Positions 921-10,389 are shown, counted from the stretch's first letter. The stretch is DNA of 10,389 bases from a bacterium (GCA_027021085.1 JALUVB010000128.1:1-10389); one strand, 5' to 3'. Notes: generated from the sequence alone by a model not told the origin. Made by a program: numbers and translations.

Positions 921-948
921 AGCAAAAAAGCAAAATGATTCTATTTTG
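921..948 (-). terminator. Weak terminator candidate at the operon end
   Basis: Read on the minus strand, CAAAAT (948-943) pairs with ATTTTG (936-931) around a 6-nt loop and is followed by CTTTTTT. The stem overlaps the stop codon of the last operon gene (TAG, 943-941). It contains only one G-C pair at each end-equivalent position and is thermodynamically weak. The position and T-run suit termination of the hydrogenase operon, but the hairpin alone is not persuasive. Confidence 0.25.
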
Positions 949-1558
949 GTCTTTCTTCGATTCTATATACTTCTCTCCGATGTTTGGGGCATAGAACTCT
1001 CATCTGGTCAAATCTCCACTTCAGCTCACCTCGCGGTGTCTTCTCTTTGATTTCTTCTATATCCAGATGGGTAGAAGCAATAACACCGGGGTTAGTATAG
1101 GCAAGCGGGCCAAGTTTCTCACCCAGCCATTTAAGATGATCCCAGGCAGTAACTACTTCTCCGCATATTTCGCATAAAGCCAATTCTTTTTCTACGCGGG
1201 TAAAAACACTTTCTTTATTAAAAGTTGATAAATCAAATTCCTGCGTTAGTCGGACTCCCTTGCCAGTTATACAACACTCCTCACAAAAAGCACAGAATTC
1301 ACAGTTTTTGTAGTAAAGAGTAAGAATTCTTTTACCTGTACCTTTTTCTTTATCAACTATATCTTCCATTTCTATGGTCCCGGTAGGACAAACCATTGCA
1401 CAGGCACCGCATCCTACGCAATCTTCTTCAAAATATTTTGCCGCTCCCCGAAAACCAGGAAATGGTTTATGAGAGACGTAAGGGAAAGGCACAGTGTAAG
1501 GACCTTTCAATAAAGCAGTAACTGCCTCTTTGATTTCCCTTATTTTTGGCTTTTTCAT
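941..1558 (-). CDS. HycF/MbhN-like 2x[4Fe-4S] ferredoxin subunit of the hydrogenase
   Basis: This is a 205-aa electron-transfer subunit, expected to carry electrons between soluble ferredoxin and the hydrogenase small subunit on the cytoplasmic face. The first cluster motif is C47-x2-C50-x2-C53-x3-C57-Pro. The second is C86-x2-C89-x2-C92-x3-C96, followed by Ile instead of the usual Pro and with an extra C95. After the ferredoxin fold the sequence QEFDL...ELALCEICG matches the pattern of E. coli HycF/HyfH, which carry a C-terminal CxxC...CPxC element. Here it is C129-x2-C132 and C190-Pro-Lys-His193, so the last ligand position is His. The ATG overlaps the mrpG stop by 4 nt (ATGA), with AGAGGAG upstream as ribosome binding site. 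It is the last gene of the operon, separated from the other hydrogenase genes by the whole Mrp module. Assignment as the NuoI/MbhN equivalent is secure; ligation of a third metal site is inference. Confidence 0.9.
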   Translation of the reverse strand: MKKPKIREIKEAVTALLKGPYTVPFPYVSHKPFPGFRGAAKYFEEDCVGCGACAMVCPTGTIEMEDIVDKEKGTGKRILTLYYKNCEFCAFCEECCITGKGVRLTQEFDLSTFNKESVFTRVEKELALCEICGEVVTAWDHLKWLGEKLGPLAYTNPGVIASTHLDIEEIKEKTPRGELKWRFDQMRVLCPKHRREVYRIEERPK

Positions 1559-1881
1559 TTTTTCTCCTCTTCGTATTTGTCACAAACACTTTTCTTCCAG
1601 AGTTTCACGCCTGACTTGTGAGCACCCCGAGCCAGCGCATGGGCAGCAGTAGGGGCAGTTATGAGAATAAAAACAAGCGTTAACAATGCTTTTATTCCTA
1701 TAGCATTCCATCCTGAATAAACCAGCACACCTACCATGATAAAGATTGTACCCAGGGTTACGCATTTGGTAGAAGCCTGAAGCCGGTTGTAAAGGTCGGG
1801 TAAACGAATAAGACCGATGCAGCCAAGAAGATTGAAAGCAACACCGATTCCCATCAATATAAAAGAAATCATTTCCCTCAT
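1555..1881 (-). CDS. Mrp-type Na+/H+ antiporter subunit G (MbhC-like)
   Basis: A 108-aa small membrane protein of the PhaG/MnhG family, with about three hydrophobic segments. The family signature is clear at residues 26-44: RLPDLYNRLQASTK, then CVTLG. It is a core membrane subunit of Mrp antiporters and of Mrp-linked hydrogenases, where E, F and G form part of the ion (probably Na+) path. The start chosen is ATG at 1881, because AGGGGA (1893-1888) sits 6 nt upstream; the in-frame ATG three codons later would be too close to any Shine-Dalgarno. It follows mrpF after a 36-nt gap, the largest in the operon, and overlaps the next gene by 4 nt. Confidence 0.95.
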   Translation of the reverse strand: MREMISFILMGIGVAFNLLGCIGLIRLPDLYNRLQASTKCVTLGTIFIMVGVLVYSGWNAIGIKALLTLVFILITAPTAAHALARGAHKSGVKLWKKSVCDKYEEEKK

Positions 1882-1917
1882 AATCTATCCCCTAATTTAA
1901 AAAATTCCAGATTCCAA

Positions 1918-2184
1918 TTATTCATCAAATCCTTTCCCTTCCAGGTATTTGGCCAGAGCCAAAGTGCCTATAAAGCTGAGAAGCGCCCAGGAAATAGCCA
2001 CATTCATGTAAAAATCTCTCCCGGTAAGCACGGAGAGGAAACCACAGAAACCTACCACCAGAATCCCCAGTATATCTATGGCTACAGTTCTATCTGGCGC
2101 TGTAGGACCTCTTCCAATACGATACAGACATAGAAAACAAGCTAAGAGTAGAATATAAATATAAACGAATATCGTCACTATCAT
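1918..2184 (-). CDS. Mrp-type antiporter subunit F (MbhB-like)
   Basis: An 88-aa protein with three predicted transmembrane helices. It belongs to the MrpF/PhaF family by the motif GPTAPDRTVAID at residues 26-37, including the conserved Asp31 and Asp37. In Mrp and Mbh complexes this subunit packs with E and G in the distal membrane module. AAGGAG lies 5 nt before the ATG. It starts 9 nt after mrpE ends. Length and motif are typical; I see nothing unusual. Confidence 0.95.
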   Translation of the reverse strand: MIVTIFVYIYILLLACFLCLYRIGRGPTAPDRTVAIDILGILVVGFCGFLSVLTGRDFYMNVAISWALLSFIGTLALAKYLEGKGFDE

Positions 2185-2193
2185 CTCTTCTCC

Positions 2194-2697
2194 TTAGTCA
2201 AAAATTTTCATTAAATACCTTTCAAATCTTTTTACAATTATCTTGGTAGCTTCTTCTACATCCTCGCTTCTCACATATATCCAATGCACAAATATCGTAT
2301 CTCCCACCATATCTACACTCAATGTTCCCGGAGTAAGGGTAATTGAATTAGCCAGTGCCACTCTCCCCGTATCGCTCTTTATTTTTGTTTTTACTTTTAC
2401 AATCCCGGGACGAATGGGCAAGCGCGGATGAAGGACCCGGTAGGCTACGTCCAGATTAGCCAATATAACATACCAGAAGAATACAGGAAGATAGATAAGA
2501 AAGTTAAATATCCTTACGGGACTGTAAAACTTGTAAACTCTCTCCGGAATAAGGTCACCCAGGTAAATCCCTATAAAAAGGGAAACGATAAAACCAATAA
2601 AGAGGTTTTGTTTAAAGGCAACCGTATCGTAGGGACGATTATACACAAGAAGTAACCAGATTATAAAAAGTGCTAAGAATAAAGTAAACCGTTTCAA
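2194..2697 (-). CDS. Mrp-type antiporter subunit E (MbhA-like)
   Basis: A 167-aa MNHE-family protein. It has two N-terminal hydrophobic stretches and another around residues 62-82, then a soluble alpha/beta C-terminal domain. The family motif is visible as LPIRPGIV (93-100) and LANSITLTPGTLSVD (115-129). It is a structural and ion-path subunit of Mrp antiporters and Mbh hydrogenases. The ATG lies one base after the mrpD stop codon, with GGGAGG in the mrpD terminal codons acting as ribosome binding site, so translation is probably coupled. Confidence 0.95.
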   Translation of the reverse strand: MKRFTLFLALFIIWLLLVYNRPYDTVAFKQNLFIGFIVSLFIGIYLGDLIPERVYKFYSPVRIFNFLIYLPVFFWYVILANLDVAYRVLHPRLPIRPGIVKVKTKIKSDTGRVALANSITLTPGTLSVDMVGDTIFVHWIYVRSEDVEEATKIIVKRFERYLMKIFD

Positions 2698-2698
2698 T

Positions 2699-4186
2699 TT
2701 AACCTCCCATAACCATACTTATATATTTTGTCCCGTTTATTAAGGTTCTAACTGCCGGGTCTAATACTATGCTTCTCAAATGAGGTAGCAGGATTACTCC
2801 CAGGAAAACCGTTATTAAAGAGAGAATCAACATAGAAGCTGTCATAAATACCGGACTCTCTTTAATTCTCTGGAGATTATTTTTCAAAGGGCCAAAGAAT
2901 ACATACCGATTCATTCTGAGGTAGTAACCCAGGGTGAGCACACTTACCAGAATTGTAAAGATTGCCCAACCTAACCTTCCTGCATCCAGAAGAGCAAGGA
3001 TAATAAATAATTTTGACCAGAATCCTGCCAGAGGAGGAATACCTGCCAGGGAAAGAAAGCCTATATCTCCCGAAATACCGGTGATAGGCATTTTTTCCAT
3101 TAATCCTCCCATCTTTTTAATATCTCTGGTCTCTAACCGGTATTCTAAAGAACCAGCCGATAGGAAGAGCAGGGCTTTAGAAGTTGCATGTACAAAAGTA
3201 TGGAGAAGGGCAGCCATTATTCCCAGAGGAGTACCCAGGGAAAAGGCTATCACAATGTAGCCAATATTGCTTATGCTGGAGTAAGCAAACATTCTTTTTA
3301 TATCATTCTGCACCAGGGCAAGTAATGCACCGGTAAGCATAGATGCCCCGCCTAAGAACATAAGAATCTGTGGAATAAATCTGGTTTCCAGAAGAGGGAA
3401 GCCAAAGATATTATAGAAAATTCTCAAGAAAGGATATATACCCAGGGCTTTTATCAATAGGCCGGAAAGTACGGCAGAAATGGATGCGGGAGCAGAAGGA
3501 TGTGCATCTGGTAACCAGGCATGGAAAGGCACCAGGGCTGCCTTCAAACCGAAACCAAATACAAAGAGAATTACTACAAACCAGAAAGCATGCCCCCCAG
3601 AAATCCCACTAATCTTGGACCCTATATCTGCCAGGTTGAGAGTACCGGTGAGTGAATAGAGAAAACCAATACCCAGAAGGATAAATACGGAAGACACAGT
3701 ACCTAGAACCAGGTATTTAAACGAGGCTTCCAGTTCTTCTGCTTCTGTTCCAAAACCTACTAAAGCATAGGCAGAAATCACTGCAATTTCAAGAAAGACA
3801 AAAAGATTGAATATATCTCCGGTAAGCACCACCCCATTCATCCCTGCTAACATGAGCAGGAATAAACTATAATAGCGAAGTTTTGAGGTGTATATCTCCA
3901 TGTAGTCAACCGAGTACAGAGTAACAATAAAAGCTACCAGGTTAACAATAAGCAGGAAAAAGGCTGATAAGCCATCAAGAACCAGATTTATCCCCAGGGG
4001 CGGCTTCCATCCCCCCATAAAGTAGATCTGGTTACCGATTCTAAAAAGGTATAAAGACATGATAAGAAGCGAAAGAGTAGCAAGATTTCCCAGTACATCT
4101 GCAGTTCTTCTGTTTTTGCGAGAAACCATGGGGATAAGAAACCCCATACCTAAAGGTAAAGCAACCATTAATGGTAAAACATTCAT
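2699..4186 (-). CDS. Mrp-type antiporter subunit D (MbhH-like proton channel)
   Basis: A 495-aa polytopic protein of the proton-antiporter (NuoL/M/N) family with the usual 14-helix core. The key ionisable residues are present: Glu133 on TM5 (FVFLEIA), Lys215 on TM7 (FGLKAALVPFHAWLPDAHP), Lys246 on TM8 (LLIKALG), Lys337 on TM10 (HATSKALL) and Lys392 on TM12 (GFWSKLF). This is the complete charge chain expected of an active half-channel pair. Length equals typical MrpD. The start overlaps the mrpC stop by 4 nt (ATGA). Its place between C and E matches bacterial mrp operons. In Mbh the equivalent subunit, MbhH, lies next to the hydrogenase module. Confidence 0.95.
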   Translation of the reverse strand: MNVLPLMVALPLGMGFLIPMVSRKNRRTADVLGNLATLSLLIMSLYLFRIGNQIYFMGGWKPPLGINLVLDGLSAFFLLIVNLVAFIVTLYSVDYMEIYTSKLRYYSLFLLMLAGMNGVVLTGDIFNLFVFLEIAVISAYALVGFGTEAEELEASFKYLVLGTVSSVFILLGIGFLYSLTGTLNLADIGSKISGISGGHAFWFVVILFVFGFGLKAALVPFHAWLPDAHPSAPASISAVLSGLLIKALGIYPFLRIFYNIFGFPLLETRFIPQILMFLGGASMLTGALLALVQNDIKRMFAYSSISNIGYIVIAFSLGTPLGIMAALLHTFVHATSKALLFLSAGSLEYRLETRDIKKMGGLMEKMPITGISGDIGFLSLAGIPPLAGFWSKLFIILALLDAGRLGWAIFTILVSVLTLGYYLRMNRYVFFGPLKNNLQRIKESPVFMTASMLILSLITVFLGVILLPHLRSIVLDPAVRTLINGTKYISMVMGG

Positions 4187-4530
4187 CCTTTCAACCTCTT
4201 TATTTCATTAATGTCAAAAGTACCGTATCTCTCATAGATTCTTATGGCCATGGAGACAGATAAGGCAAGAACTCCGAAACCAATTACTATCGAGGTTACT
4301 ACCAGAGCCTGGGGAAGAGGGTCCACAGAATATCTGAGAAAGTAAGCTAAACTCATATCCGGGGTTCTTATAGGAGCAATCCCTCCTCGCCGGTAACCTA
4401 TCAGGATTAAGAACAAGTTAATTGCATACTCCATAATATTCAATCCGATGACAATCTTGACAATATTTTTCTTGGTAGCCACACAATAAAGTCCTATCAT
4501 CAGAAGGACAAAGGAAAGAATATACTCCAT
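4183..4530 (-). CDS. Mrp-type antiporter subunit C (NuoK/MbhG-like)
   Basis: A 115-aa three-helix protein of the NuoK/MnhC family. Helix 2 carries GLNIMEYAINLFLI (29-42), with Glu34 at a buried position. Helix 3 carries the Mrp-specific DPLPQALVVTSIVIGFG (70-86), which separates MrpC from true NuoK. It links the antiporter subunits in Mrp and Mbh complexes. The ATG abuts the mrpB stop codon with no gap, and GGGAGGAG upstream provides a strong ribosome binding site. Confidence 0.95.
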   Translation of the reverse strand: MEYILSFVLLMIGLYCVATKKNIVKIVIGLNIMEYAINLFLILIGYRRGGIAPIRTPDMSLAYFLRYSVDPLPQALVVTSIVIGFGVLALSVSMAIRIYERYGTFDINEIKRLKG

Positions 4531-5025
4531 TTATTTTCTCCTCCCTGTAGGTTTTCTGGTCATTTTTTTCTCCCCGTTTGGCAAGCCTACAACGCGGGTC
4601 ACAGAGAGAATAATAAACACCATGAATATGGAAGCCCCTACTTTTAAGCCAATAGCAAGGTTCGCCCAGGGAATAACACCTGCCGAGAAAAGCTTGAAAT
4701 AACTCGAGGGTAGCTTAGTAAGAAAATTCTCTGCAAAAAAGCTGCCAAAATAAAGCCCAAGCAGAGCAATACCCAGGAAAATTATGGCACCAGTGGAATC
4801 CAGTTCAGAAGCTAAAGTGCTGTTCAATTTTCTCAATGGCGTATCTTTACCAAATGCAAGCGTAAGCAATACAAAGGTGCCTGCTATTATTACCCCACCC
4901 GGGAATCCTCCTCCCGGAGTAAGGTGTCCAAAAATCACTATGTAAAGCCCAAAAAGAAGAACAAAACCAACTATCCACCTGGTAACTACCTTGACAATTA
5001 CACTTAAACCTTCTTTTTCGCTCAC
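4531..5025 (-). CDS. Mrp-type antiporter subunit B (MbhF-like), GTG start
   Basis: A 164-aa MnhB-domain membrane protein with about four helices. The signature GHLTPGGGFPGG is at residues 33-44. The start codon is GTG at 5025-5023, overlapping the previous stop as GTGA, with AGGAG at 5038-5034 eight bases upstream. This is the only non-ATG start among the complete genes here. A basic tail (KKMTRKPTGRRK) ends the protein on the presumed cytoplasmic side. In B. subtilis-type Mrp the subunit follows MrpA, as it follows the MrpA C-terminal-domain gene here. Confidence 0.95.
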   Translation of the reverse strand: MSEKEGLSVIVKVVTRWIVGFVLLFGLYIVIFGHLTPGGGFPGGVIIAGTFVLLTLAFGKDTPLRKLNSTLASELDSTGAIIFLGIALLGLYFGSFFAENFLTKLPSSYFKLFSAGVIPWANLAIGLKVGASIFMVFIILSVTRVVGLPNGEKKMTRKPTGRRK

Positions 5026-5582
5026 TTTATTCTCTCCTCTTTATCCCTTGCTCCTCTCTTCTTATGGGAAGGTCTCCTGAGTATAGCCAGAGCACCCAGG
5101 AGAGAAGCAAAGAGAATGGTGGCTTCTCCTATAGTGTCATACATTCTAAAATCCAGGAGTATAGAAGTGGTCACATTAGCAGCTCCTGTTCTCCGTAATC
5201 CCTCTTTAAGAAAAAATCCCGATATACTTTTTCCCTGGCTGAGAAGTGGCACGCCAAAATGAGGTAATTCTCTAAAGAAAGGATAAGCTGCCAGGGTTAT
5301 AAGTACAATAACAGCAAGAGAAAAGGATAATCCAATTTTTCCCCGCATTCCCTTAACCGTGGTTATATCATTTCTTAAAGTTGCCCGCACCAGCACAACT
5401 AAGGTTAAAACTTCCACTACCACCTGGGTTATGGCAATGTCCGGTGCTTTTAAAAACAGAAAAGCCAAAGATACAATAAAGCCCACTGCCCCCACCGAGA
5501 TAACAGCAGAGAGAAGGTCTCTGGTCTCAGCAGCAATTAATGCCCCTATTATCATAAATACAAGAAGTACATTAAACTCCAT
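5022..5582 (-). CDS. MrpA C-terminal-domain protein: fused MbhD (DUF4040) and MbhE
   Basis: A 186-aa membrane protein with two domains. Residues ~5-70 are the DUF4040/MbhD domain with APDIAITQ (46-53). Residues ~85-170 are MbhE-like, with NVTTSILLDFRMYDTIGEAT (136-155), the classic MrpA C-terminal motif. In Bacillus-type Mrp these domains are the C-terminal part of MrpA; in Pyrococcus Mbh they are two separate small proteins, D and E. Here they form one standalone protein. The ATG is one base after the stop of the 634-aa NuoL-like gene, with GGGAGG before it. The two lengths together (820 aa) are about those of an intact MrpA, so this looks like a split mrpA. The C-terminus is strongly basic. 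Confidence 0.9.
   Translation of the reverse strand: MEFNVLLVFMIIGALIAAETRDLLSAVISVGAVGFIVSLAFLFLKAPDIAITQVVVEVLTLVVLVRATLRNDITTVKGMRGKIGLSFSLAVIVLITLAAYPFFRELPHFGVPLLSQGKSISGFFLKEGLRRTGAANVTTSILLDFRMYDTIGEATILFASLLGALAILRRPSHKKRGARDKEERIK
5034..5038 (-). promoter_or_regulatory. Ribosome binding site deciding the mrpB GTG start
   Basis: On the minus strand AGGAG lies 8 nt before the GTG at 5025. It sits inside the 3' end of the upstream gene. Together with the GTGA stop/start overlap it supports translational coupling and the choice of GTG as the start. Confidence 0.6.
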
Positions 5583-5583
5583 T

Positions 5584-7488
5584 TTACCTCCCTAACATCA
5601 AGAGAAGCAGAATCAGCATACCTAATAACCCCCAGGTAAGGTATGTTGGCAAAATACCTGTATGCAGAAGAGACAGGAACTTCCCCCCTACCCTGCACAA
5701 GGCGGCAACCCCCTGCCAGACATAATCCACTAATCTGTCCAGGAAAATGTAGAGAATCCGCGAGAAGAACCTGCCCAAATCTTTCAGCCAGGCATAAAAA
5801 TCGGTAAGTTTACCTTCCAGGAATTTATACACCCGGTTAAAATTCTTCCACTCTTGCAACGTTTTATAAAACTGAACTCCCGAAAAGTCCATATCTTTCT
5901 CTACTTTCTCTCCTCCTATATATGAACCCGTGCTACGATACTTTACTCCCTTGCTCAATAGATAAATAATGCCGCCCAGAATGAACCCTACTATAATAAG
6001 ATAGGTAGTTAAAGTAGGACTCCACCAGCCAATCCACTGGGCCGGAGAAGGTAAAGAAACTACTGGCCCAAGGAACGAATTTATTATGAGAGGATAAGCA
6101 AATATTCCGAATATCACACATAAAGAAGCAAGCACCCCCATGGGCAGCCACATTGACCAGTGAACCTCCTTTATCCGGCGGCCAAAATCTTTCCCTCTAC
6201 CCAAAAACACCGAGTGGATTACTTTTATAAAGGAAGCCAGGGTTAAGGCAGAGCCAAATATTGCTGCCACCAGCCAGATTATCCAGGTCCTTATCCCCTG
6301 GTTTCCCAGCTCCACCAGGCCCTGGTAAATCATCCACTTGGAGAAGAACCCGTTGAAAGGAGGGATTCCGGAGATAGAGAAAGTAGCAATCAAAAAGGTT
6401 ACAAAGGTCACCGGCATTAAATTCCCCAATCCGCCTAACTTTTCCAATTCAGCCGTCCCTGTTCTCTTCTCCACAGCTCCGCCTCCCAAAAAGAGGGAGG
6501 ATTTATAAATAGAATTATTAATCATGTGGAATAACCCACCCGCTACGGCTAATGGAATCCCGGAACCAATTCCCAACACCATGTAACCCACCTGGCTGAC
6601 CGCATGGTAAGAAAGCAATCTTTTAAAGTTTTTCTGGATTAATGCCAGGAGAACCCCACCCATTATAGTAAGAGAACCAATAAACATCAAAGCCTGGGAA
6701 ACTCCACTCCCTACTTTAAGGGAAAAGAAATCAAAAGATATACGATAAAGTAGATAAATACCTAAAAGTTTATCCAGACTGGCAGGAAGAAGTGCCATTA
6801 CCGGTACTGGAGCATCTTCCGATACCCGGGGTATCCAGGAGTGGAAAGGAAATGCACCTGCTTTTCCCAGACTCCCTGCTACCAACAGGAAGAAGGCTGC
6901 CACAGGCAAGCCTCCCTTGAGAGACACCGGGGAAAACCCATTCATGCGTCCCGTTCCCGTGAGGTTCATTAAAATCAGTATTCCCAACAGGAGAAGCAGG
7001 TCCGCTCCTCCCACCACTGTCATGGCATGTGAGGCAGAAGAGATAGACCCCAGAGAAGTTAATCCGTAAAGGAAAAGTAGCAACAATCCCCAGAAAAATA
7101 TAAATAGGATAAAATTGTTGGCAAGAAGCACTCCTATACTCGCCCCCACGCTTCCCAGGAGATAAGCATAGAATTCCTTCTCTCTTTCCCGCCCACGGTA
7201 ATAAACAAGGGAATAAATAACGGTGAGAAAACCGAATAAGGCTACAAAGAGGACTAAGAAGGATGAGAGGGTAGAAGTACGTAAATCAAAGCCAAAACCT
7301 AAAGGTGAAAAGATAGGTACGGAGAAGAAAAAGGAAGGCTTGACTACAATTTTCATGGCCAGGATAAAGGTATAAAGAGTAGCAAGGAAAGCAACAGCTT
7401 CTCTCCATCCTTTGCGAACCGGGAAAACCAGCGAAATAATCGCACCTAAGAAAGGAAGAGAAAGAAGCCAGAGAACCAAACTAAGCAT
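5584..7488 (-). CDS. NuoL/MrpA-N-like antiporter subunit, lacking the TM5 glutamate
   Basis: A 634-aa polytopic protein of the NuoL/MrpA/HyfB family. The channel lysines and histidine are present: Lys209 (GSLGKAGAFPFHSWIP), Lys240 (LDKLLGIY), His321, Lys329 and Lys384 (FFSKWM). The near-universal TM5 Trp-Glu pair is Trp133-Gly134 (FFWGLLLL), so the charge that pairs with the TM7 lysine is missing. After the 14-helix core, residues ~515-634 contain SYIGGEKV, a long amphipathic stretch rich in Phe, Tyr, Lys and Trp, and a final hydrophobic helix. This resembles the lateral helix plus TM16 of NuoL/MrpA, or the role of MbhI. The ATG directly follows the previous TAG, and GGGAGG lies 7 nt upstream. 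The following gene supplies the MrpA C-terminal domains, so this is best read as the N-terminal half of a split MrpA. Confidence 0.88.
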   Translation of the reverse strand: MLSLVLWLLSLPFLGAIISLVFPVRKGWREAVAFLATLYTFILAMKIVVKPSFFFSVPIFSPLGFGFDLRTSTLSSFLVLFVALFGFLTVIYSLVYYRGREREKEFYAYLLGSVGASIGVLLANNFILFIFFWGLLLLFLYGLTSLGSISSASHAMTVVGGADLLLLLGILILMNLTGTGRMNGFSPVSLKGGLPVAAFFLLVAGSLGKAGAFPFHSWIPRVSEDAPVPVMALLPASLDKLLGIYLLYRISFDFFSLKVGSGVSQALMFIGSLTIMGGVLLALIQKNFKRLLSYHAVSQVGYMVLGIGSGIPLAVAGGLFHMINNSIYKSSLFLGGGAVEKRTGTAELEKLGGLGNLMPVTFVTFLIATFSISGIPPFNGFFSKWMIYQGLVELGNQGIRTWIIWLVAAIFGSALTLASFIKVIHSVFLGRGKDFGRRIKEVHWSMWLPMGVLASLCVIFGIFAYPLIINSFLGPVVSLPSPAQWIGWWSPTLTTYLIIVGFILGGIIYLLSKGVKYRSTGSYIGGEKVEKDMDFSGVQFYKTLQEWKNFNRVYKFLEGKLTDFYAWLKDLGRFFSRILYIFLDRLVDYVWQGVAALCRVGGKFLSLLHTGILPTYLTWGLLGMLILLLLMLGR

Positions 7489-8883
7489 CTATTTACCTCC
7501 CAGAAAAGCAAAAAATGGATAAGAATATTCAAGGAAATAAGGCGCAATTAATCCTATTGCCAGAGAAAGCAAGCCCAGTAAAAATACACTTCCTACCATT
7601 ACTGCTTTGCCCTCTTTCACCCTGCTATTGGCAGAGGTCACTTCTCCTCCGAATACTCTAATCATTAAACGACTGAGATAGAGAAGAGTAAGTACAGAGG
7701 AAAGAATAGCACCCATGGCTAATCCAGGATGACCGGAATCTACAATTCCTTTAATTATCATAAGTTTCGGGAAAAAACCAGCCAGAGGAGGGAAGCCCAT
7801 TATCGAAAAAGCACAGAGCGTCATGGAGAAAGCAGTAATCGGCATACCCTTCCTTAAACCGCCCAATTTGTCCAGGTCTCTTGTCCCGGTAGCCCTCTCT
7901 ACCACCCCTGCTCCCAGGAACAGTCCCCCTTTGGCTATGGCATGGGCTACAAAGTAGAGAATTGCTGCTGACCAGCCTATCCTGGTGAAAAGAGCAAATC
8001 CCATGAAAATGAAACCAAGCTGGCTTACCGTAGAATAGGCAATTACTCTTTTCATGTCATTGACCAAGAATGCTCCGGCTCCGGCTGCCAGGGAGGAAAG
8101 AAGAGCAAGAATAAAGAAAGATTCCCAGAAGGAAGTATGGGTTAAATAAAAGAGCCTTACAAAAACAACCAGGCCAAGTTTTGCCACTATCCCGGAAAGA
8201 ACCGCACTCATGGGTGAAGGAGCCACAGGATGCGCATCGGGCAGCCAGGTATGCATCGGGAAAGTAGCAGACTTTGCTATAACTCCCAGGAGGATTAGAA
8301 TCAAAGAGGGATAGGCTACGGAAGAACCAATATCTCTTAATCTGATAAGGTCCAGGGTGCCCGTGCTTTTGTAAATCCACAGGATTCCCAGCAACATCAA
8401 AGAAGAACCCAGGAAAGTCATTAGTAAAGTCTTATCGGCAATCCTTACAATTCTCTTCTTCCTGTAAAACCCTATCAACCTCCAGGTGGAAACTGCTACC
8501 AGTTCCCAGAAAATGTAGAGAAGAAGCAGGTTCCGGGAGTATGATGCCCCCACTAACCCGGCAATAAGCAGCAAAGTAAACGAATGGAATTCGTTAGTGT
8601 GCTTTTCTCCGGAAAGGTAGGATGAAGCATAGAACAATGATATTGCTCCTAACAGAGTGAAAACAGCGGAGAAAATAAGCGTGAAATAATCAACCATGAA
8701 GAATGAGGAAGTATAAGGCAGCGACACATTCTTACTAAAGCCAAAATATATGAGCAAGGAGAAAGAAACAAGAGGAAGAACCGTTGAGAAGAAATTTCTT
8801 ACCTTTTCCTTCCAGAGCCAGGCAAAACCAGCACCAAGAAGCGGAAGAATCAATGGTAAAAGCATTAAGAACTTATCTTGCAT
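7489..8883 (-). CDS. Additional MrpD/NuoM-like antiporter subunit of the hydrogenase
   Basis: A 464-aa 14-helix protein of the proton-antiporter family. It keeps the full set of charged residues: Glu127 on TM5 (FWELVAVSTW), Lys204 on TM7 (VIAKSATFPMHTWLPDAHP), Lys235 on TM8 (GIVAKLG), His314 and Lys318 on TM10, and Lys373 on TM12. It is shorter than the 634-aa neighbour and lacks a lateral-helix extension. It starts inside the large-subunit gene (11-nt overlap) with GGAG before the ATG, so it belongs with the hydrogenase module rather than with the Mrp set. It makes a third antiporter-like channel, beyond the two in Mrp and the one in Pyrococcus Mbh. The closest parallel known to me is the duplicated H/H' pair of archaeal Mbx/Mbs. 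No specific gene symbol is safe. Confidence 0.9.
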   Translation of the reverse strand: MQDKFLMLLPLILPLLGAGFAWLWKEKVRNFFSTVLPLVSFSLLIYFGFSKNVSLPYTSSFFMVDYFTLIFSAVFTLLGAISLFYASSYLSGEKHTNEFHSFTLLLIAGLVGASYSRNLLLLYIFWELVAVSTWRLIGFYRKKRIVRIADKTLLMTFLGSSLMLLGILWIYKSTGTLDLIRLRDIGSSVAYPSLILILLGVIAKSATFPMHTWLPDAHPVAPSPMSAVLSGIVAKLGLVVFVRLFYLTHTSFWESFFILALLSSLAAGAGAFLVNDMKRVIAYSTVSQLGFIFMGFALFTRIGWSAAILYFVAHAIAKGGLFLGAGVVERATGTRDLDKLGGLRKGMPITAFSMTLCAFSIMGFPPLAGFFPKLMIIKGIVDSGHPGLAMGAILSSVLTLLYLSRLMIRVFGGEVTSANSRVKEGKAVMVGSVFLLGLLSLAIGLIAPYFLEYSYPFFAFLGGK

Positions 8884-10063
8884 ACTTACTCCTTAATCTT
8901 TCTGTCTTTTCCCAGGAAAGCTTGACTAAATCCTGCTGGGTCAACCATTCTTTCTTCTCACCCCTGACAATGCCAACTCTTTCTGTACAGCAGTAGCAGG
9001 GGTCAATAGCAGCAAGTATAATCACTGCATCTGCAATCTGGCAGCCAGGGGCAGTTACTTTACAGGTAGGCAAATTAACATAAGTAGGTGCTCTTACTTT
9101 GTGCCTTATGGGCCCTGCCCCTCCGTCGCTCTTTAGGTAATGGAAAGTTTCTCCCCGGGGAGCTTCATGGTGTCCAATCCCTTCTCCCGGAGGGAATTCT
9201 CTAATAGGGGTAATAATCTCGCCTTTAACTTCTTTCAAAGCATCAAGGCACTGCTCTATAATTTTTATAGACTCGAAAGTCTCCAGTATTCTTACCACGA
9301 CCTTGTCCAGGAGGTCTCCATTTTCACAGGTAATTACATCCCAATCAAGCCTATCGTAGGCAGCGTAGGGATCATCCCTTCTCACATCTATTTTTACCCC
9401 GGAAGCCCTTACCGTAGGTCCCACTGCACCATAATTTCTGGCTTCTTCCGGAGGAAGAACCCCTACCCCTTTGAGACGGGACAGTATTACCGGGTCATCC
9501 AGCACTGCTTTGGTAATCATATCCAGGTTTTTCTTTATTCCATCCATTTCCTTCTTTATCCAGGGAATATTTTTCTCGTCAATATCCCTTCTTACTCCTC
9601 CCGGCAATAACATATCATAGTGATTTCTATTCCCGGTAAGAGCTTCAAATATATCCAATACCGGTTCTCTCCACTTCCATGCCCACATCCATACGGTATT
9701 GTATCCCAGGAAATGTCCGGCTAAACCTAACCACAGGAGATGAGAATGAATTCTTTCCAGCTCACCCACAATAGTTCTTATGTACTTGGCTCGCTCTGGA
9801 ATCTCTACCTTGCAGAGGTCCTCCACTGCATTGCAGTAAGCAATAGGATGGGAAGTGGAACATATACCGCAAATTCTGGCCACCAGGAATGTAATCTGCT
9901 GCCAGGATTTTGCCTCTGCCAGCTTCTCGATACCCCTGTGGTTGTATCCTAATTCCATATCCACATCCACCACTTTCTCACCCTCCACAGTCAAGGTGAA
10001 GTGCTCCGGTTCCTCCTGTAAAGGATGGAATGGGCCAATAGGTATTATTGTTTTACGAGCCAT
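8873..10063 (-). CDS. Group 4 [NiFe] hydrogenase large (catalytic) subunit, MbhL/HycE-like
   Basis: A 396-aa subunit that should reduce protons to H2, or the reverse, at a Ni-Fe(CN)2CO centre. The N-terminal ligand motif is RICGIC (63-68: Cys65, Cys68) with His72. The C-terminal motif is DPCYCCTER (354-362: Cys356, Cys359). With all four cysteines present, this is not a NuoD/FpoD subunit or an MbxL-type sulfur reductase. The start IPIGPFHPLQEEPEHF is typical of the group 4 N-terminus. After Arg362 there is a 34-residue tail. HycE has a similar tail, removed by an endopeptidase after the Arg of the same motif, so processing is likely. The start forms TAATG with the upstream stop, with GGAG 5 nt before it. 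It overlaps the next gene by 11 nt. An unusual third cysteine, Cys358, lies between the two ligands. Confidence 0.93.
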   Translation of the reverse strand: MARKTIIPIGPFHPLQEEPEHFTLTVEGEKVVDVDMELGYNHRGIEKLAEAKSWQQITFLVARICGICSTSHPIAYCNAVEDLCKVEIPERAKYIRTIVGELERIHSHLLWLGLAGHFLGYNTVWMWAWKWREPVLDIFEALTGNRNHYDMLLPGGVRRDIDEKNIPWIKKEMDGIKKNLDMITKAVLDDPVILSRLKGVGVLPPEEARNYGAVGPTVRASGVKIDVRRDDPYAAYDRLDWDVITCENGDLLDKVVVRILETFESIKIIEQCLDALKEVKGEIITPIREFPPGEGIGHHEAPRGETFHYLKSDGGAGPIRHKVRAPTYVNLPTCKVTAPGCQIADAVIILAAIDPCYCCTERVGIVRGEKKEWLTQQDLVKLSWEKTERLRSKYAR

Positions 10064-10389
10064 TATTTCTCCCAGTTTTTATCTTTAAGATTTTTTATAC
10101 CTTTTTCATCCCTTCTTAAGGGGTAGATTCCTTCCGGCCAATCCTCGGCAAGAAGCAAAGGTTTAAGATTAGGATGACCAACAAACTCTATTCCCAACAT
10201 CTCATGGATTTCCCGCTCAATAAACTCTGCTCCCTTTATGAGCGGAGTAATAGAGTCTACCTTGAGGTCATCCTTGGGTATCTTCACCCTTAGAGAAAAT
10301 ACCCTGCCTGTCTTATCCTCTGAGAAGTGATACAGTATCTCCATCTCTCTTCTTCCATCTACCCCCGAAGCCGTCGCCAGCCTCATATC
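10063..10389 (-). CDS. NuoC/MbhK-like 30-kDa hydrogenase subunit (partial, N-terminus cut)
   Basis: The frame is open to the right edge, and 108 residues are visible including the first codon (Asp). Family features are VDGRREMEILYHF near the start, then GAEFIEREIHEMLGIEF (53-69), GHPNLKPLLL (71-80) and EDWPEGIYPLRRDE (82-95). These match the C-terminal core of the complex I 30-kDa subunit family, which docks onto the large subunit. Met at 10386 is unlikely to be the start: it lies inside the conserved fold, and family members are usually longer, so roughly 40-70 residues are probably missing. The stop shares one base with the large-subunit ATG (TAATG). An equivalent 30-kDa protein is MbhK in Mbh and the N-terminal domain of HycE in formate hydrogenlyase; here it is separate, as in Mbh. 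Confidence 0.9.
   Translation of the reverse strand, partial: DMRLATASGVDGRREMEILYHFSEDKTGRVFSLRVKIPKDDLKVDSITPLIKGAEFIEREIHEMLGIEFVGHPNLKPLLLAEDWPEGIYPLRRDEKGIKNLKDKNWEK

Follow-up and report, generated by a model that had tools for sequence, protein, structure and literature searches.

The stretch of DNA analysed here (the window; JALUVB010000128.1, 10,389 bases) is a complete contig (G000:C128) of a 1.93-Mb, 307-contig draft bacterial genome, and its genes probably specify both the catalytic core and the membrane arm of a group 4 [NiFe] hydrogenase of the energy-converting kind, with an NAD(P)H input module of the group 3b type. All hydrogenase and Mrp genes listed in a first-pass annotation of the window are present on the minus strand (Table 1), with Pfam matches far above chance (for example, PF00361 with E-values of 1e-47 to 1e-69), in agreement with its description of hydrogenase genes followed by a complete Mrp module and closed by an iron-sulfur subunit. 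The gene junctions are tight, with overlaps of 1–11 bases or gaps of 0–36 bases (−11 to +36), and so the cluster reads as one operon. The seven-subunit Mrp antiporter set, MrpA to MrpG, is complete, MrpA being split into the NuoL-like protein of 634 amino acids (aa) and an MbhD–MbhE fusion. The three predicted antiporter-family proteins (464, 634 and 495 aa) all match PF00361 (E-values of 1e-69, 2e-47 and 1e-67, respectively).

Table 1. Genes of the hydrogenase–Mrp cluster in the window, in order of transcription
Feature	Coordinates	Strand	Supporting matches and remarks
NuoC/MbhK-like subunit, 5' end missing (contig end)	10063..10389	-	PF00329 E 4e-25; full-length orthologues in L014, L015
NuoD/MbhL-type [NiFe] large subunit, 396 aa	8873..10063	-	PF00346 E 3e-69, PF00374 E 2e-17
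Extra (third) antiporter-like subunit, 464 aa	7489..8883	-	PF00361 E 1e-69
NuoL/MrpA-N-like subunit, 634 aa	5584..7488	-	PF00361 E 2e-47
MbhD+MbhE fusion (MrpA C-terminal part), 186 aa	5022..5582	-	PF13244, PF20501
MrpB/MbhF-like, 164 aa	4531..5025	-	PF04039 E 1e-25
MrpC/MbhG (NuoK-like), 115 aa	4183..4530	-	PF00420 E 2e-26
MrpD/MbhH-like antiporter subunit, 495 aa	2699..4186	-	PF00361 E 1e-67; closest solved MbsH, MbhH
MrpE/MbhA-like, 167 aa	2194..2697	-	PF01899 E 5e-41
MrpF/MbhB-like, 88 aa	1918..2184	-	PF04066 E 2e-18
MrpG/MbhC-like, 108 aa	1555..1881	-	PF03334 E 6e-26; NF009314 above its cut-off
HycF/MbhN-like 4Fe-4S subunit, 205 aa	941..1558	-	PF00037/PF12838; NF009053 (formate hydrogenlyase iron-sulfur subunit) E 2e-23

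NuoB and NuoH, which are required in any such hydrogenase, lie outside the window. NuoH is the last gene of contig C285, where it is cut by the contig end. Upstream of it on C285 are rex and the genes for a 4Fe-4S protein resembling HydB/AsrA, an FAD/NAD-binding protein resembling HydG/AsrB that also has a 2Fe-2S domain, and a ferredoxin of the CooF/HycB kind. NuoB of this genome falls in an assembly gap and is present in the related genomes G005, G006 and G002. In the sister genome G005 (locus L014), rex to hycF are contiguous on one contig, and the genes are 88–99% identical to their counterparts in the window's genome where both are known; G006 (L015) adds the HycI protease and HypB. With C285 and C128 joined by synteny, the operon would read rex-hydB-hydG-cooF-nuoH-nuoB-nuoC-nuoD-ant-nuoL-mbhDE-mrpB-C-D-E-F-G-hycF, where ant is the extra antiporter gene. 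At L014 13945–14996, a frameshift that is either an assembly error or real splits the HydB gene into two frames; the gene is intact in C285 and in other relatives.

Both nickel CxxC motifs of NuoD (C65/C68 and C356/C359) are invariant among 18 relatives, which sets the enzyme apart from complex I and from the hydrogenase-related (Ehr) complexes; judged by its sequence, the NuoD-type enzyme is a true hydrogenase of [NiFe] group 4. The best solved relative of the large subunit is Pyrococcus furiosus MbhL (6cfw_L, E = 3.5e-93). The solved MbhL chain stops at CTDR, and window NuoD has CTER and a C-terminal tail of 34 residues; a HycI-type protease is encoded together with HypA and HypB on contig C246 of the window's genome. 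The group 4 subunit set of NuoB, NuoC, NuoD, NuoH and a NuoI/HycF-type protein is accounted for, with NuoC, NuoD and HycF in the window, NuoH on C285 and NuoB from the three related genomes. The cluster does not have the mbhA–N order, the leading E/F/G-type genes, the single antiporter and the ferredoxin-only input of a group 4d MBH. It shares the HydB/HydG diaphorase subunits with group 3b (sulf)hydrogenases and not their catalytic pair, its catalytic subunits being of the NuoB/NuoD type, and the formate dehydrogenase of a group 4a formate hydrogenlyase (FHL) was not found in C285 or C157. Viral contigs gave no match when the large subunit was used as the query. A second [NiFe] hydrogenase is encoded on G000:C22 (L019 4368–11665), with group 3-like small and large subunits, a protease, a MetV-like protein, HypF and HypD.

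A scan of species genomes gave at least 578 loci encoding a relative of the large subunit, and the best 80 of these belong to Omnitrophota, Aerophobota, Desantisbacteria, Zixibacteria, Fermentibacterota, Hydrogenedentota, Elusimicrobiota, Spirochaetota, Margulisiibacteriota and others. The synteny comparison with bacterial loci that had been suggested for the window was run on 101 distinct loci. The order HydB-HydG-CooF-NuoH-NuoB-(NuoC)-NuoD is found in 78 of the 79 loci with enough upstream sequence, and the order after NuoD is exactly NuoL-DE-B-C-D-E-F-G-HycF in 51 of the 60 with enough downstream sequence. The window gene order is thus the standard one of a large bacterial family of many candidate phyla. 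It does differ from that of archaeal mbh, where the E/F/G-type genes come first, as had been predicted, but neither the order nor the presence of three antiporters is the novelty that was proposed, since the former is standard in this family and the latter is already known from FHL-2/Hyf (PMC7384014).

Some loci depart from this layout. L048 (9303–9662), L131, L142 and L158 carry HydB to NuoD without an intact Mrp block directly after NuoD, which is followed by HycF in L048, L142 and L158 and by no cluster gene in L131; the Mrp genes of L142 are on the opposite strand. The two molybdopterin oxidoreductase inserts identified, in L133 (1980–3722) and L138 (5722–7623), lie between HydG and CooF, as in a published Saganbacteria region, and may provide a second electron donor. 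In L109, a 668-aa protein without a Pfam match is encoded between HydG and CooF. Window bases 1–940 contain no cluster gene, and a short repeat-like sequence, ATACCTGCTTTCGCAGGTATGAC, with a partial inverted copy lies at 570–680 in this gene-free left contig end.

Among solved proteins, HydG is closest to the gamma subunit of P. furiosus soluble hydrogenase I (E = 1.6e-56) and HydB to its beta subunit (E = 1.8e-39); gamma and beta form the NADPH diaphorase of this group 3b enzyme. Operon starts were scanned for Rex operators over the 250 bases that precede the first gene (rex or hydB) and the initial 40 bases of that gene, with a threshold of at least 12 of 14 bases of the consensus TTGTGAAW4TTCACAA given in PMC2883068. 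An operator, TTGTGAAnnnnTTCACAA, is present at this threshold in 32 of 75 operon starts, 12 of them perfect, compared with 11 of 2020 windows drawn at random from these loci (0.5%), and rex itself is the first operon gene in both the window's genome and the sister genome. Since Rex responds to NADH/NAD+, in many lineages the operon appears to be under the kind of control expected of a system that balances NADH. The diaphorase-like HydB and HydG together with the operators of an NADH sensor suggest that NADH, rather than NADPH or ferredoxin, is the likely redox partner.

A third antiporter gene follows nuoD in 14 of the 97 relatives with a readable junction, in addition to the window, and is therefore a minority feature of the hydrogenase family. 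In complexes of this type, a lateral helix (HL) between transmembrane helices (TM) 15 and 16 scales with the number of antiporters (PMC7684303, PMC9474812). The lateral-helix segment of NuoL, taken between the loop motif GVQFYKT and HTGILPTY in TM16, is 46–47 residues long in all 77 two-antiporter loci and 71–72 residues long in all 10 three-antiporter sequences, the window included; a few of these loci are duplicated between collections, and because the loci are related, the counts are not independent. AlphaFold2 places HL at residues 564–606 (43 residues) of window NuoL, in a model with low confidence within the helix (block pLDDT of 44–61), and at residues 556–574 (19 residues) of NuoL from the two-antiporter locus L095. 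The 26 extra helix residues would span about 39 Å, a plausible width for one antiporter subunit. Because the longer helix and the extra antiporter occur in exactly the same loci, this subunit appears to be built into the membrane arm. Read by eye, the more distant three-antiporter locus L074 has the long helix as well, and the Hyf-like loci L072 and L073 have three antiporters yet a short one. The latter two (G272 and G135) are Hyf-like hydrogenase clusters with HydB/HydG ahead, possibly another NAD(P)H-linked group 4 type. The fold of window NuoL matches MrpA, complex I NuoL, HycC and MbsH', and among PDB entries its C-terminal helix element has MbhI as the only true relative matched, weakly.

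These observations lead to a conditional model in which electrons would pass from NAD(P)H through HydG (FAD, 2Fe-2S), HydB (4Fe-4S), the CooF/HycB-like protein, the HycF-like protein and NuoB to the NiFe site for H+/H2 turnover, a layout resembling a formate hydrogenlyase whose formate dehydrogenase is replaced by a diaphorase. Turnover would be passed via NuoH to NuoL, the extra antiporter, presumably placed between NuoL and MrpD, then MrpD and finally the MrpB–G sodium module. The ion moved across the membrane would be Na+ or H+. The V-type ATP synthase c subunit of the same genome (G000:C54; L164 1465–1947) has two hairpins with LPGTQGFY, HQG and VETY, which are the Na+ ligands in the Enterococcus hirae K ring; together with MrpB–G, these residues suggest Na+ coupling. 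The enzyme would mainly serve to remove NADH by making H2, since a high NADH level relieves repression by Rex. At low H2 pressure the potentials of NADH and H2 are almost equal, and so the arm would either spend an ion gradient in pushing H2 out or gain a little energy at very low H2.

Several observations weigh against this model. HydB and HydG are on another contig here, and their link to the window rests on the sister genome and synteny. Homologues of HydG accept either NADH or NADPH, and the one from P. furiosus is linked to NADPH. The Rex-like site before rex in the window's own genome, TTATGAAAATTTTCATAA, is weak (11/14), and the molybdopterin protein in the same operon of some relatives would allow another donor there. 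The driving force from NADH to H2 is small, so that pumping by three subunits would need ion influx or conditions close to equilibrium and could not otherwise be paid for by NADH alone. Finally, window NuoL does not have the TM5 Glu and has Gly134 instead. In one alternative, the enzyme would be Mbh-like and coupled to ferredoxin, as HydDB groups 4d and 4g are assumed to be: ferredoxin would feed electrons directly to HycF, and HydB, HydG and CooF would form a separate enzyme. MbhL is the closest solved structure to the large subunit, HydDB lists 4g as putatively ferredoxin-coupled (PMC5037454), and Mrp-linked enzymes of Omnitrophota and Cloacimonadota are labelled 4g and modelled as ferredoxin-driven (PMC8542988). 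The fixed position of HydB-HydG-CooF ahead of NuoH in all but one of 79 loci and the NADH-sensor operators at the operon start argue against it, as does the finding that the window's genome has no separate hydrogenase or sulfite reductase catalytic subunit beside HydB/HydG/CooF, making this alternative quite improbable. The opposite direction, in which H2 would reduce NAD+ and the leftover energy would export Na+, agrees with the reversibility in principle of the enzyme and with the physiological reversibility of group 3b diaphorases (PMC5037454), but it seems unlikely, as Rex derepression at high NADH fits NADH consumption and nothing here points to H2-dependent growth.

Two further alternatives concern whether the antiporters belong to the hydrogenase and how many of them pump. 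The first-pass annotation had assigned them to the hydrogenase and had named a separately expressed Mrp complex as a finding that would refute it; such a complex would merely be a neighbour of the hydrogenase. The MrpB–G order is the same as in stand-alone mrp operons, and a few relatives, the four loci described above, have the redox genes without Mrp directly after. However, no separate Mrp or complex I was found in the window's genome, whose only three PF00361 proteins are all on the window contig, so that a separate Mrp complex would leave the hydrogenase without an antiporter. The Mrp block also lies between NuoD and HycF in 51/60 loci, and NuoL has the TM15–HL–TM16 element that ties the redox and pump modules together in MBS (PMC7684303), so that separation is highly improbable. 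As for pumping, the extra antiporter of the window has the full charged set (E127, K204, K235, H314 and K373), with the TM5 Glu, TM7 Lys, TM11 His and TM12 Lys kept in 13/13 homologues and the TM8 Lys (K235) in 12/13, and all five residues of MrpD (E133, K215, K246, H333 and K392) are kept in 73/73 homologues. The TM5 position of NuoL is Gly in 73 of 88 sequences, Glu in 12, Asp in 2 and Asn in 1; NuoL keeps the TM7, TM8 and TM12 Lys, and the TM11 axis His is Asn in 49/88. Thus, the expectation of three antiporter-like channels stands as far as the extra subunit is apparently part of the arm, but three channels are doubtful because NuoL has Gly in place of the conserved TM5 Glu; two of the three antiporter-like proteins carry the full residue set, and three proteins need not mean three pumps. 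It is possible, if somewhat doubtful, that the third antiporter adds no pumping and is an arm extender or a stand-in for a degenerate NuoL, which would affect the stoichiometry only and is compatible with the NADH-linked model. The replacement of the NuoL TM5 Glu and the retention of H2 production when hyfDEF is deleted from FHL-2 (PMC7384014) favour this possibility, and the conserved residues of the extra antiporter fit an active pump instead. Any ion stoichiometry is inferred.

The extra antiporters, together with the one in L074, group in a clade separate from both MrpD and NuoL (SH-aLRT of 99). The presence of the third antiporter requires at least 5 changes on the NuoD tree, 3 of them forced by well supported branches, and 3 changes on the NuoL tree. 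By the approximately unbiased (AU) test, the NuoL sequences are compatible with a single origin of the three-antiporter form (p = 0.116; p = 0.228 and 0.409 with 7-row and 6-row subsets), and so several independent gains are not claimed. The helix extension of NuoL, in which a DRxxD-like motif recurs, may be one inherited piece. Between L086 with three antiporters and L088 with two, NuoD and NuoB are 83% and 80% identical, and NuoL and MrpD are 35% and 41% identical; between L088 and L084, the values are 80% for NuoD, 58% for NuoL and 66% for MrpD. Between L086 and L088, the entire ion module or membrane arm thus appears to have been exchanged.

The same parts, namely a group 4 hydrogenase, Mrp-like subunits, CooF and the HydB/HydG homologues AsrA/AsrB, have been described for the Saganbacteria RX5A region (Matheus Carnevali et al. 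2019, PMC6349859). The accessible part of that account notes relatives in Zixibacteria and Omnitrophica, where the present analysis finds the same operon; it describes a molybdopterin oxidoreductase as well, leaves the electron donor unknown and contains no analysis of Rex operators, helix length or a third antiporter. The 'group 4g' hydrogenases of Omnitrophota and Cloacimonadota (PMC8542988; HydDB, PMC5037454) are likewise Mrp-linked and overlap in candidate phyla, but they are described as ferredoxin-driven. Pyrococcus MBH (group 4d, PDB code: 6cfw) and MBS (PDB code: 6u8y) have homologous redox and Na+ modules and an HL that scales with antiporter number (PMC7684303), but they have one and two antiporters, respectively, ferredoxin input and E/F/G-type genes first, whereas the window has three antiporters and a different order; MBS has lost the hydrogenase function. 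The HycB-HycF-HycG-HycE electron chain is shared with E. coli FHL-1 (PDB code: 7z0s) and Hyf/FHL-2 (PMC7384014), the latter also having three antiporter-like subunits, but both take formate as input and are without MrpB/E/F/G. P. furiosus soluble hydrogenase I (PDB code: 9nez) shares HydB and HydG but is a soluble enzyme whose catalytic pair is of group 3b. The list of parts and the linkage to Mrp have therefore been published already (PMC6349859 and PMC8542988), as has the helix ruler between MBH, MBS and complex I (PMC7684303). Relative to this literature, as far as its accessible text goes, three findings appear to be new: an input module of the group 3b type in nearly all loci, the Rex operators and, within one enzyme family, a strict correspondence between the length of the helix and the number of antiporters. 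The NADH reading is likewise new relative to PMC6349859.

If NADH is the donor, it would be a concrete answer for widespread hydrogenases of uncultured phyla described as having 'unknown electron donors'. That the length of the helix matches the number of antiporters exactly lends support to a 'ruler helix' in the growth of complex I-type arms, and the two- and three-antiporter versions of one enzyme provide a natural pair for the idea that pump number sets ion stoichiometry. Tentatively, one NADH-linked family could exist in two-pump and three-pump forms, the switch being gain or loss of the antiporter gene along with a change of 26 residues in the brace helix. Evolution would then have altered how many ions are moved per H2 by adding a unit, and the same redox module would be pluggable onto different arms, as in L086 and L088.

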